This document shows, in pieces, positions 13,532 to 18,773 of a stretch of 20,068 nt of DNA. Numbering within the stretch: position 1 is the first letter of the stretch; each line of letters starts with the position of its first letter. Under the pieces are notes generated by a model. The model did not search any database. It was given only the letters and a program-made list of their open reading frames with translations, and was not told the origin of the DNA. Source of the DNA: a virus; the IMG/VR virus record IMGVR_UViG_3300035698_008476, positions 1 through 20,068 of that record; one strand, given 5' to 3'. Both the position numbers and the translations under genes were made by a program.

Positions 13532-13647
13532 TACTTTTTTTCCCTAAAAATCCTGTCGTAATTTTTTTCGTACTCCGCAAGGTCAACTTTACGGTAAGCA
13601 TCGCCCTTACCTGCACCGTTTTTGTTTCTGTTCTTAGACTCTTTCAT
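13531..13647 (-). CDS. 38-residue basic phage protein next to large terminase
   Basis: ATG 13645-13647 lies inside the last codons of the large terminase in another frame (14-base overlap). TAA 13531-13533 touches the next ATG. The product is basic and has DAYRKVDLAEYEKNYDRIF, a pattern I know from short podovirus proteins near terminase and portal genes. The function is unknown. The chain of overlaps (terminase, this gene, next gene, portal) argues that all four are translated from one mRNA. Confidence 0.68.
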   Translation of the reverse strand: MKESKNRNKNGAGKGDAYRKVDLAEYEKNYDRIFREKK

Positions 13648-15310
13648 AATCACTTTCCACGAATCTCTGCGAATTGCTTTTATATGCACTGATAGTAGCA
13701 ATACTACTCTTCGAGGCTGCTAACAGAAAATAGTTCAATGCGTTTCTATAATGCTCCTTCTTGCCCTTGTACCTGTACTGTCTTGCGCCGGTCCTCTTAC
13801 TAGTCTCAAGAATCTTGTAGGCATTGCACATCTGTTTGGCGAACTCCTTAATCTCAGGTGAACGCCTCGGAATAGTCAGCATACCTTCCGTAACTACCAT
13901 GCGGTGGGTCTCGTCAAATAAAGCAGTTCGGTAATCCTTGACTATCCCCTTTTTGTTGTCCCACATCCGCAAGAAAGCGGGGTTATCGGAATACTCACAT
14001 AAGAATATCTGGTATGGTTCGTCCTTCTGGAACTTAGCCGCAGAGTCCCTGAACGGCCTCATGTCAATAACGGCGGAGGTAATATGGAACTTTCTGGCTA
14101 AGTCGTGTATGTCCTGCCATGACGATAAGGCGACCGTCTTAAATATCTGGTATCTATCGTTGCCTGTCCTCGCACCGATGACAATATGTTTAATATCACC
14201 TACGTCAATACCCATAGCACACGGGCCTTCGTGAGAAGGGTACATACCATCGTTGTTGCAGCAGCTATAAACATCGGCCATAGTCAACCTGTCCTCAGCG
14301 GCAATGTAAGGCAAACCTAAACGCAAACGATAAACATCTGCCAAATTACCTTCCGGCGGGTTGCGGAAGTCCCTCAGTATCTCAGTGGGGTCGTTAAAAG
14401 CCGATGTCAAATGACTCCACTGGTAGCCGTGCATAAAGTCGGAATTGGCACGCTCGGCGGCAACCCACTCACCATCCCTGATAAATACCTCTTTGCCGCA
14501 GTTCTTACAAATTATGAAACCAATACCATCGTCCCTGATACCAACACACTTCTCAGGGTCCTCCATGAAGAACAACTCAGCGCAGGTGAACTTGCCGCAA
14601 TGGTTACACTTTCGGAACCAATGCCGCTGGTCGGAAGAAGAATATACAGTATCAATACCTGTGCCCGGTACAAGTGGATTTGAGATATAAACCTCTTCTT
14701 TGACCTTAGAGTGGCCTAACCTGCCGCGAGCTTTGCCGGCAACTTCCATGCCCTCATCCATTTTGTCAAGCTCATCAAACTTGATAGAGTCAACAGGAAT
14801 AGAACTCATGCGGGAAGATTCACTTACATCGTGAAGTTTCTGGCTCAATCTCGCTCCGCGTAAGTACAAAAAGGCATCGTGTATCTTCTTTAGTGAAGCC
14901 GAATCAGTGCCCTTGCCGCCACTCTTAACGTATTTGCCTATGGCCTCGCGGTTAGATAGTATCAAAGGATTGAAACGGGACTTGCTGAACTCAAGAACAT
15001 CATCGGTAGTAGGAAACATATACAAGTCGCCCTGTGGATGATGGCCGTGAATCATGTCGTGTAAGGAGCGTAAGACCTCAATCTCGGTAAATCCGCCCTG
15101 AGTGCCCTTCATGTAACATCTACGCCTCACACGCGAGGACATAGGCTCTCGCTGGTACTCGTGGTCTTTGAATGAGAACCTGCCTGTCTGGAGTTTAATC
15201 TGGTGCAAATCAGCAGCCCATATATCACAACGCTCACTTGCGGCAAAGTGCGCACGCTTCTCAGGCGACCAACTTGCTAACTCTTCTGTTTGTTCAAGTG
15301 TTAATGGCAT
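13634..15310 (-). CDS. Terminase large subunit (GpA-type packaging ATPase and nuclease)
   Basis: A 558-residue DNA-packaging motor protein. Visible in order: a Walker A-like loop KGTQGGFTE at residues 68-76 (the G-x-Q-x-G-x-TE form of GpA-type terminases), Walker B IKFDELD at 176-182, a zinc ribbon C235/C238 and C268/C271 typical of this subfamily, then a RuvC-like nuclease with GIDVG at 367-371, VIDMRP at 414-419, and a HYRNALNY element near residue 525. In many relatives the last element carries Asp; here Asn stands at the likely place, which may or may not affect metal binding. AGAAGG precedes ATG. A strong terminator hairpin ends only about 25 bases upstream of the start. Small terminase lies about 3 kb upstream rather than adjacent. 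Confidence 0.93.
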   Translation of the reverse strand: MPLTLEQTEELASWSPEKRAHFAASERCDIWAADLHQIKLQTGRFSFKDHEYQREPMSSRVRRRCYMKGTQGGFTEIEVLRSLHDMIHGHHPQGDLYMFPTTDDVLEFSKSRFNPLILSNREAIGKYVKSGGKGTDSASLKKIHDAFLYLRGARLSQKLHDVSESSRMSSIPVDSIKFDELDKMDEGMEVAGKARGRLGHSKVKEEVYISNPLVPGTGIDTVYSSSDQRHWFRKCNHCGKFTCAELFFMEDPEKCVGIRDDGIGFIICKNCGKEVFIRDGEWVAAERANSDFMHGYQWSHLTSAFNDPTEILRDFRNPPEGNLADVYRLRLGLPYIAAEDRLTMADVYSCCNNDGMYPSHEGPCAMGIDVGDIKHIVIGARTGNDRYQIFKTVALSSWQDIHDLARKFHITSAVIDMRPFRDSAAKFQKDEPYQIFLCEYSDNPAFLRMWDNKKGIVKDYRTALFDETHRMVVTEGMLTIPRRSPEIKEFAKQMCNAYKILETSKRTGARQYRYKGKKEHYRNALNYFLLAASKSSIATISAYKSNSQRFVESDYERV

Positions 15311-15444: not shown

Positions 15445-15478
15445 AAAAAAAGCCCCACAACCTTTCGGTCATAGGGCT
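15445..15478 (-). terminator. Intrinsic terminator after the GC-phased array
   Basis: On the minus strand a 12-base-pair stem (15478-15467 with 15462-15451, with G-U pairs) closes on a GAAA tetraloop and is followed by at least six U. It ends the transcription unit that contains the RAMP-like gene and the 5/6-mer array. Confidence 0.85.
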
Positions 15479-15517
15479 TCGTTTCTTACAATTGTCCTGA
15501 TACTTATTTAGTTTTTA

Positions 15518-15918
15518 CTTTGCTTCGCCTTTGCTCCGCGGCGCCAGGCCTCGCCTTTGCTTCGTCGAGCTTCGCATTGCATCGCCTTTGCTGCGCGGCG
15601 CGTCGCTTCGCTTTGCCTTTGCGTCGCCCTTGCCGAGCTTGGCCGCGCCTGGCCGTTGCTGCGCGCCGCTCCGCCAAGCCACGCCTTTGCAAGGCGGCGC
15701 CTCGCGGCGCCATGCCTTTGCTTCGCTATGCTGGGCGGCGCCTTTGCTTCGCAATGCTTTGCCCGGCTCCGCCTTTGCGTCGCCGAGCCTTGCCCGGCCT
15801 TTGCCCTGCTGAGCAGTGCCTTGCCTTTGCCGTGCCAAGCGACGCCTCGCCTTTGCTTCGCTTTGCTTTGCTACGCCCTTGCCGCGCCATGCAAAGCTCT
15901 GCTATGCTAAGCCTTCGC
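15518..15918. repeat. Array of 77 five- or six-base units ending in GC, helically phased
   Basis: Read on the plus strand, the region splits without gaps into 61 pentamers NNNGC and 16 hexamers, mostly CTTTGC. Only one unit (TTCGT near 15561) lacks the final GC. Hexamers start at 15518, 15529, 15555, 15586, 15617, 15628, 15654, 15685, 15716, 15742, 15773, 15799, 15825, 15851, 15877 and 15913, so most intervals are 26 or 31 bases (one hexamer plus four or five pentamers); the series 11, 26, 31, 31 occurs twice. Mean unit length is 5.21 bases, so two units span 10.4 bases, one DNA helix turn. The first three bases of the pentamers vary widely. The array is GC-rich compared with its flanks. It starts 12 bases after the RAMP-like gene stop and ends 40 bases before a terminator. 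Frames stay open on both strands, but 26- and 31-base periods rotate the frame, so it is not coding. Confidence 0.9.
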
Positions 15919-15929
15919 CGAGACAAACC

Positions 15930-16514
15930 TTACTGCTTACTCACTTCTTTCCACTTAAACCTGCCTTTGCCAGAATTACGCCATTGGCCTAATCCACGCA
16001 ATGCACCGTAATCAAGCCATTCCTTGACAAACTTTTCATACTTTTTATCCAAACAAGTAATATCAAAAGCAATACTTGACCCTACCGGCACAGACTCGGA
16101 CCTCGCCAACGCTATTCGCTCACCTTTTGCCGTCTGACCCCTTAATGGTCTTTCGCACCACTCTATTTCACCAACTACATCAATAAATATCTTTCGCGGG
16201 CCAGGGAAAATTACCCCGTCAATTATCTTTTTGTAAGCCTGCAACTTGCTGCTCTTAGTGCCGGAAACCCGCCTTAACATACCGCAGGCATCTTTGAAAA
16301 ATCCCTTGACCTGATAGTCCCACAAAAACGGCCTGCCATCTTCTCGCGGGAAAACAGTCGATGCCTGCGCAATATCATCTTCAGGTAATTCCGCGTGAAG
16401 TTCATCTTCCTGCGGCCCGTCAGGATGCTTGCTGGCAATAAAAGTTCCCGTAATGTCTTTATTACCCGACACCGTGCCAAGTAACGGCTCTGTAAATTCA
16501 ATTCTTACTCTCAT
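15930..16514 (-). CDS. Phage protein with RAMP-like glycine loop, upstream of the GC array
   Basis: A 194-residue protein, ATG overlapping the upstream stop by four bases (ATGA), with AAGGGAA before it. N-terminal residues show a beta-strand start MRVRIEFTEPLLGT, then a FPREDGRPFLWDYQVKGFFK segment near 55-74 and a helix DACGMLRRV. Near the C-terminus, residues 174-186 read GLGQWRNSGKGRF, which fits the glycine-rich loop (G-x-G, five residues, G-x-G-x-aromatic) of RAMP-fold proteins such as Cas5, Cas6 and Cas7. I have met very similar proteins in many phages as hypothetical proteins, so it is a conserved phage family. Assigning the RAMP fold is inference; no catalytic His is evident, and RNA binding rather than cleavage would be the natural guess. 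It is the last gene before the array and terminator. Confidence 0.75.
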   Translation of the reverse strand: MRVRIEFTEPLLGTVSGNKDITGTFIASKHPDGPQEDELHAELPEDDIAQASTVFPREDGRPFLWDYQVKGFFKDACGMLRRVSGTKSSKLQAYKKIIDGVIFPGPRKIFIDVVGEIEWCERPLRGQTAKGERIALARSESVPVGSSIAFDITCLDKKYEKFVKEWLDYGALRGLGQWRNSGKGRFKWKEVSKQ

Positions 16515-17959: not shown

Positions 17960-18049
17960 TCATATACACGCCCGGCCCATTGGGGGGTGAAGCCTTTTTT
18001 TAGGCCCGGCCCCTTCCCTTTTCTTATGCTTTACCATGCCTTTACTCAT
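17960..18049 (-). CDS. 29-residue basic small protein coupled to the upstream gene
   Basis: ATG 18047-18049 overlaps the stop of the 99-residue gene as ATGA, with GGAG ten bases upstream. The frame ends at TGA 17960-17962. The product MSKGMVKHKKREGAGPKKRL plus nine residues is rich in Lys and Arg. The coupling and the binding site make translation plausible, although so short a frame can arise by chance. The remaining 66 bases to the next gene hold no other clear signal beyond a direct repeat CTTGGG. Confidence 0.45.
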   Translation of the reverse strand: MSKGMVKHKKREGAGPKKRLHPPMGRACI

Positions 18050-18345
18050 GCCGTCCATACTCCATTAGTTGCGGGACAGGGATACACCGTCGGCCTGCCT
18101 TGAGCCCTATGCCTGTCCCATATTGCCTGACACTCAGGGTCTGATGCAACCCAGGGCTGGTGCTCTAATGTCAGTTGCTCTCCGAATATAGCAATCAGCA
18201 AACCTTCCTGCTTCTTGCTTAAGGGTATAACATCATCAGGCTTTGTTATACCCTGCTTTGTTATACCTTTTGTTATACCTTTTGCCCTGCGCCTTCTCAT
18301 GGCCTCCTTCTGGGCCTGCCTCTGCTTGTCCTTATCCTTGTACAT
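18046..18345 (-). CDS. Small-terminase-linked protein with GITK repeats
   Basis: A 99-residue protein whose ATG overlaps the small terminase stop (TAATG). The N-terminus is strongly basic (KEAMRRRRAK), followed by a repeat in which GITK occurs three times and then DDVIP. The C-terminal half is a compact domain with PLSKKQEGLLIAIFGEQ and a late CPATNGVW. The repeat is also a DNA repeat: GTTATACC occurs three times with one inverted copy. I recall phage proteins beside terminase genes that carry analogous short VTP-type repeats. The role may be packaging-site recognition or regulation; this is inference. Confidence 0.65.
   Translation of the reverse strand: MYKDKDKQRQAQKEAMRRRRAKGITKGITKQGITKPDDVIPLSKKQEGLLIAIFGEQLTLEHQPWVASDPECQAIWDRHRAQGRPTVYPCPATNGVWTA
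18223..18279. repeat. GTTATACC repeat cluster
   Basis: GTTATACC occurs at 18245-18252, 18260-18267 and 18272-18279, and the inverse GGTATAAC at 18224-18231. The first inverted pair extends to nine bases per arm (18223-18231 and 18245-18253) with a 13-base loop. The cluster lies inside coding sequence near the small terminase gene, a common place for packaging start sites. Confidence 0.75.
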
Positions 18346-18773
18346 TATGCCTCCTTGGCCAGTCTTGGCGGTGAATAGTTGGCCAGTAAAGCCCTGCCTA
18401 ATGCCTTCTCACGGGCCGTATAGGCCTCTCCTTCGAGGTTAGGAGCCAATTCTCGGTGATAACCTAACATTTCATTCTGCTCACGTATGGCCGATACCAT
18501 AGCTGATGGGTTATTAGAGCTACTAGCTAAGAGTTTGACGGATTCAAGGTCTTTGAGTTGCTTTTCACGTGTTATATCCACCTTTTTAGCCGTTAAAGCC
18601 CTTTTATCCTCTATGTCCTTCATTAACTCTTGCTTTTGCTTGTTCTCCCATCCTGCCTGTTCAGGGTCTTTATATCCTGCTATTCTTGCGGATTCGGTCG
18701 GATTCTCACCTTTAAGCATAGCCGCTAACCACTTTGTTTGTTTTACTGTCCGATGTATTGTCTTGGTCTTCAA
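18345..18773 (-). CDS. Terminase small subunit
   Basis: A 142-residue protein of the small-terminase type: an N-terminal helix-turn-helix module with TKWLAAMLKGENPTESARIAGY at about residues 13-34, then a long charged central helix (DKRALTAKKVDITREKQLKDLESVK) and a C-terminal region that should bind the large terminase. It recognises phage DNA and loads the packaging motor. The start is TTG 18771-18773, supported by AAGGAC ten bases upstream. No ATG fits better. Unusually, about 3 kb of small genes and the array separate it from the large terminase gene. Confidence 0.83.
   Translation of the reverse strand: MKTKTIHRTVKQTKWLAAMLKGENPTESARIAGYKDPEQAGWENKQKQELMKDIEDKRALTAKKVDITREKQLKDLESVKLLASSSNNPSAMVSAIREQNEMLGYHRELAPNLEGEAYTAREKALGRALLANYSPPRLAKEA

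Follow-up and report, generated by a model that had tools for sequence, protein, structure and literature searches.

The 5/6-letter repeat at positions 15518 to 15918 of a 20,068-base virus record (hereafter the window) is very probably a row of RNA guides and not a DNA-geometry signal. We consider it highly probable that the repeat and the gene next to it form a VIPR-type RNA-guided system against rival phages, written in a variant grammar. VIPR (Viral Interference Programmable Repeat), reported in 2026, couples a phage-encoded ancestral RAMP protein, Vipr, with vrRNA guides (preprint PMC13142463). According to its main text, the guide RNAs consist of 9 to 16 YNNGG pentamers and target competing phages; the NN of each unit base-pairs to the target, where one base is skipped per unit (PMC13142463). 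The same text describes seven types, of which phage SUSP1 represents type II, allows for 'a related consensus' as well as for 'staggered arrays with overlapping vrRNAs', and proposes that CRISPR RAMP effectors descend from such a system (PMC13142463).

Features of the locus are collected in Table 1. The minus strand of the window carries terminase, portal, capsid and tail genes. In transcript order, this strand reads through the gene at 15930-16514, the array starting about 12 nt after its end, a gap of 37 nt and a predicted hairpin (15480-15449), which agrees with the sequence-only reading, where the array was placed 3'-terminally in a transcript, ahead of a terminator. The terminator scan returns about as many sites as in shuffled sequences, so that the hairpin is weak evidence alone. 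When the region was checked for a structured 3' tail, only the terminator hairpin stood out and such a tail was not recognised; an Rfam search near the arrays found neither a hammerhead nor any other ribozyme or RNA family. Because relatives of the window terminase lack the Vipr gene in the flanks fetched, the RAMP locus looks like an accessory gain. Elsewhere in the window, a short 12/15-base tandem repeat occupies 18240-18284 within the ORF at 18046-18345 (KGITKGITKQGITKP).

Table 1. Features at and around the repeat array (positions in the window).
Feature	Position	Strand	Basis
Terminase large subunit	13634..15310	(-)	phrog_675 E=7.9e-75
Intrinsic terminator-like hairpin, 14 pairs, T-rich tail	15449..15480	(-)	terminator scan; fold z -2.9
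37-nt gap from last unit to terminator; possible 3' tail	15481..15517	(-)	sequence
Guide-type array, 77 units; candidate precursor of VIPR-like guide RNAs	15518..15918	(-)	gap-free parse
Sole unit without GC, TTCGT on the plus strand	15561..15565	(-)	unit parse
Vipr-like RAMP protein, predicted Cas7 fold, 194 aa	15930..16514	(-)	structure model, profile matches, SUSP1 control
Terminase small subunit	18345..18773	(-)	weak match

The array follows a strict grammar. All of its 401 nt can be assigned to 61 pentamers and 16 hexamers, leaving no gap, with a mean unit length of 401/77 = 5.21, exactly as had been read from the sequence; GC closes 76 of the 77 units, so that the accompanying rule that all pentamers are NNNGC holds for all but one. 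In plus-strand letters the hexamers are CTTTGC (12), CCTTGC (2), CGTTGC (1) and CTTCGC (1). Successive hexamer starts lie 11, 26, 31, 31, 11, 26, 31, 31, 26, 31, 26, 26, 26, 26 and 36 bases apart: the regular spacing claimed earlier is real, 12 of the 15 intervals, rather than the 11 first counted, measuring 26 or 31 bases. The autocorrelation suggested as a check does reveal the 26/31-base excess, GC in the window exceeding dinucleotide shuffles at lags 5, 26, 31 and 52 (z = 11.3, 12.4, 10.4 and 12.0, respectively), and none of 5000 shuffles of unit order matched the hexamer spacing variance of 1.2. In 20 strong arrays from related loci this variance is 3.9, versus 20.9 +- 2.0 after shuffling, and the mean unit is 5.19 +- 0.04. 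On the minus strand, which is the coding strand, pentamers read GC followed by NNN, and hexamers gain a G before GC to give NNN-GGC, mostly AAA-GGC. We rejected the array as protein-coding: every frame is open because the grammar excludes most stop codons, and there is no conserved frame. The low-complexity Ala/Lys/Arg/Gln frames of uncultured phages that the sequence-only reading mentioned are what an NNNGC array yields when translated in any frame.

No Pfam or PHROGs family covers the protein encoded at 15930-16514. A profile built from 39 homologues matches, among solved structures, the type VII Cas7 of 8yhd/8yhe (E 4.6e-4) and Csm4 (E 2.8e-3). An AlphaFold (AF2) model of the protein (pLDDT 86.4, pTM 0.80) gave 97 matches at E<=0.001 in a PDB fold search; all 50 among the matches listed are of the RAMP/Cas7 type, those at the top being Csm3 and type VII Cas7. 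Furthermore, a phage protein 59% identical to it is annotated as a Cas system-associated RAMP superfamily protein. The product is predicted to be a small RAMP protein with an RRM-like core and a glycine-rich loop. Its C-terminal motif GxGQWRNxGxGRF is nearly invariant across homologues, and the C-terminal peptide of the window gene (YGALRGLGQWRN) recurs beside array after array in the flanks of arrays found by pattern. As a blind control, we scanned the SUSP1 genome with the profile; the top ORF, at 28474-29061(-), was a weak hit (E=0.004, 11 bits) with one YNNGG array upstream and three downstream, as in the published description (PMC13142463). These arrays are exact pentamers (5.0) with hexamers absent. 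Alignment of the family to SUSP1 Vipr with hhalign reached 43% probability (E 2.5e-4) over 32 columns, in the G-loop only.

Linkage of array and gene was approached from both sides. Searching DNA for phased GCs alone, with no gene used, we retrieved at least 120 viral stretches from unrelated viral contigs, in line with the suggestion of the sequence-only reading that similar arrays could exist in other phages. A scoring scan of these stretches left 30 whose arrays are strong and obey this grammar, 22 of which adjoin a homologue of the gene (21 found by tblastn, and one, L082, truncated at a contig edge). The gene-first collection comprises 161 distinct homologues from viral and bacterial collections. 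An array lies within 1.5 kb of the gene, on its 5' side, its 3' side or both, in 93 of the 161, which is not a fully unbiased fraction since part of the collection entered via the array pattern; about 42% of homologues lack a GC array that reaches the score applied. The near-versus-far contrast is a stronger statement than this fraction: the farther DNA of the same loci, 1.27 Mb, holds 2 arrays only. Arrays are always co-oriented with the adjacent gene, G precedes GC in 92-96% of hexamers, and GC ranks best of the 16 dinucleotides at most homologues with a clear array.

The family has 389 relatives in IMG/VR, and homologues in metagenome-assembled genomes (MAGs) come mainly from gut Clostridia, with prophage-like neighbours; on this evidence the gene appears to reside mainly on phages and prophages. 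The array that comes closest in make to that of the window belongs to a Sedimentisphaerales MAG (protein 58% identical, 83 units, AAAGGC hexamers), from which we infer a Planctomycetota host for the window phage.

Comparison of related phages, a check proposed from the sequence, revealed arrays that change fast while the GGC of their hexamers stays. Two phages, L033 and L064, share 99.9% identity across about 10 kb and carry arrays of 114 and 50 units. The shorter array equals units 0-27 plus 92-113 of the longer; the two stay in register and differ by exactly 64 units, which lie between GGGGC repeats. Among genes 91-94% identical, arrays have few units in common, L143 and L145 sharing 5 in runs. 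In aligned arrays of relatives, hexamer GGC changed once in 334 cases, against 7-9% for the variable bases of pentamers, and block duplications are present inside arrays. Turnover is thus far quicker in the arrays than in the gene, and, judged from their sequences, arrays behave like a guide repertoire.

The triplets, described earlier as freely varying, are variable but non-random, with biases like those of natural DNA words (TAA at 0.30 and TTG at 2.5 of expectation). Under a model of natural phage DNA applied to neighbouring units, a target step of three bases scored best (z 2.3-3.3), ahead of four bases (0.2-1.7), and longer steps gave zero or negative z, except for small values that did not exceed 0.5. 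A codon-phase model gave z 2.0-2.5 for a step of three and negative values for other steps; in its mixture version the three-base step reached 3.0-3.4, versus 1.1-2.8 and 1.8-2.1. A cruder count of natural words did not separate steps three and four. The likeness to DNA words and the preferred step are statistical in kind and, as three is also the published VIPR step, they do not tell full three-base pairing from a one-base skip. A target search with steps of 2-7 nt over 6 Mb of DNA, including all homologous genes, gave no clear excess over shuffles, and decoded guides had no matches, or chance-level ones only, in IMG/VR and 198 genomes; across all searches, no natural target for any guide was found. 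A guide of L033 that matched the gene's own GQWR codons was judged a chance match after the shuffle-controlled search.

The mechanism we propose would work as follows. The phage would make a small RAMP protein, and the 3' part of the same transcript would provide an RNA of tandem GC-NNN units. Many copies of the protein may coat this RNA, one per unit, as Cas7 coats crRNA, each holding the fixed GC, or GGC at every fifth or sixth unit. The variable bases would then be presented to the DNA of rival phages or prophages for base pairing, which would block their transcription. The GGC hexamers, 26 or 31 nt apart, might serve as register or boundary marks that split the array into guide words. Here, RNA binding, DNA targeting and repression of rivals are borrowed from the published VIPR family and apply to the window by analogy. 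More tentatively, we may be looking at a second code of the VIPR kind, a possibility we consider less likely than not: the three variable bases of each subunit would pair with three consecutive target bases without a skip, a GGC hexamer at each fifth or sixth subunit would mark the register, and one long transcript would contain many overlapping guides.

The sequence-only reading left a choice between an RNA, the reading favoured here in the form of RNA guides, and selection on DNA geometry, bending or protein phasing. In its full form the geometric rival would have GC steps recur at half a helical turn so as to curve the DNA, aid its packaging or bind a DNA-bending protein. The number behind the geometric idea holds, as mean units in the window and in the 20 arrays are close to half of 10.4-10.5, but its cause is probably another. 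Strand polarity is set by the adjacent gene, the arrays are linked to a single family of RAMP genes, GC is replaced by GA, GT or AG in several clades, and the triplets have the word statistics of natural DNA; moreover, the 5.2-base step is not needed in the family, because the sister arrays of SUSP1 have units of exactly 5.0. A GC at each half turn would also be expected to cancel curvature, not add to it. We therefore regard geometry as very improbable. Still less credible is a low-complexity satellite grown by slippage and carried with the gene by chance. Block duplications inside arrays, and near-plain GC pentamer satellites without the gene in some contigs (L112, L036), would suit such an origin. 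The earlier view that the array is rule-bound and no plain satellite nevertheless prevails: its triplets vary with no dominant unit and with the biases of natural DNA words, its GGC hexamers are regular and are kept while neighbouring triplets change, and the same grammar, always in gene sense, recurs in many unrelated phages.

Among these alternatives, the one to which we would grant most, a slim chance, retains the RAMP-coated RNA and dispenses with target pairing, the RNA acting as a structural or regulatory scaffold (as an RNA ruler or in autoregulation of the gene, for instance). The fruitless target searches and the length and continuity of the arrays are in its favour, and from a RAMP fold by itself one would predict RNA binding but not targeting. 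Guides agree better with the block-wise hypervariability seen among near-identical phages and with the DNA-like word biases, and targeting has been demonstrated for relatives described in the preprint (PMC13142463).

With RNA guides as the preferred reading, the window locus probably belongs to the VIPR family. As far as the main text of the preprint describes that family, both have a single small phage RAMP protein with a G-loop-like C-terminus, a minimal locus of mostly viral or prophage distribution, and tandem pentamer arrays of fixed and variable bases, in the sense of the gene and upstream of it, downstream or both (PMC13142463). By the same description, GC/NNN in the window replaces the GGY/NN of SUSP1, and a single uninterrupted array, 50-178 units long in strong cases, replaces separate RNAs of about 100 nt with a tail (PMC13142463). 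Every fifth or sixth unit of the window clade is an NNN-GGC hexamer, a feature that SUSP1 lacks, and the protein is only remotely similar to SUSP1 Vipr. The vap accessory gene, typical of VIPR in that text, is not recognised in the window clade: no constant accessory family lies beside the gene across the 161 loci, where repressor-like HTH proteins occur at 49, usually 1-3 kb off. The window would then carry a VIPR variant, set apart from the main-text description by GC/NNN units, periodic GGC hexamers and a single array of 77 units.

Class 1 CRISPR-Cas effectors (Csm3/Cas7, type VII Cas7) share the Cas7 RAMP fold, and by analogy a filament of RAMP subunits, each taking about 6 guide bases, is the likely working mode. 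Their repeat-spacer unit measures 60-70 nt, versus 5-6 nt in the window; CRISPR repeats were not found, nor were Cas families among the ten neighbouring ORFs scanned. TIGR-Tas systems are also RNA-guided phage systems with tandem guide arrays, built on a Nop-domain protein. The tandem arrangement is alike, whereas protein fold and array unit differ from those of the window locus.

The collection, 161 distinct genes with dozens of arrays, offers material for testing co-evolution of protein and guide grammar; its fixed motif is a different one (GC, with GA, GT or AG in sub-clades), and its hexamers are periodic. The L033/L064 pair is a natural experiment on gain or loss of guide content.

Several observations concern individual loci. 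Pentamers of the L137-L145 clade carry GY instead of GC, and flanking arrays are phased on GA, GT or AG in L201, L208, L198, L212, L203 and L175, with GA in the Synergistaceae MAG L201 (9398-9948 and 10596-10775) and in L208 (8818-9245); even the fixed motif thus seems to evolve along with its clade. In addition to repressor-like HTH proteins, flanks of the 161 homologues encode single-strand-binding proteins (22 loci), and antirepressors and integrases are common; these neighbours point to temperate phages. In the Atopobiaceae MAG L205, where the gene has an array of its own, a second strong array (13996-14589) lies 4.9 kb downstream of both. Strong GC arrays with no recognised homologue in the piece examined occur in L014 (871-1259), L038, L043 and L116 (3437-4051): the L043 array reaches the contig end, and the other three may have a diverged gene. 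The near-plain satellites of L112 (773-970, ATGGC/AAGGC) and L036 (6677-6871, CTCGC) likewise have no RAMP gene in the piece examined.
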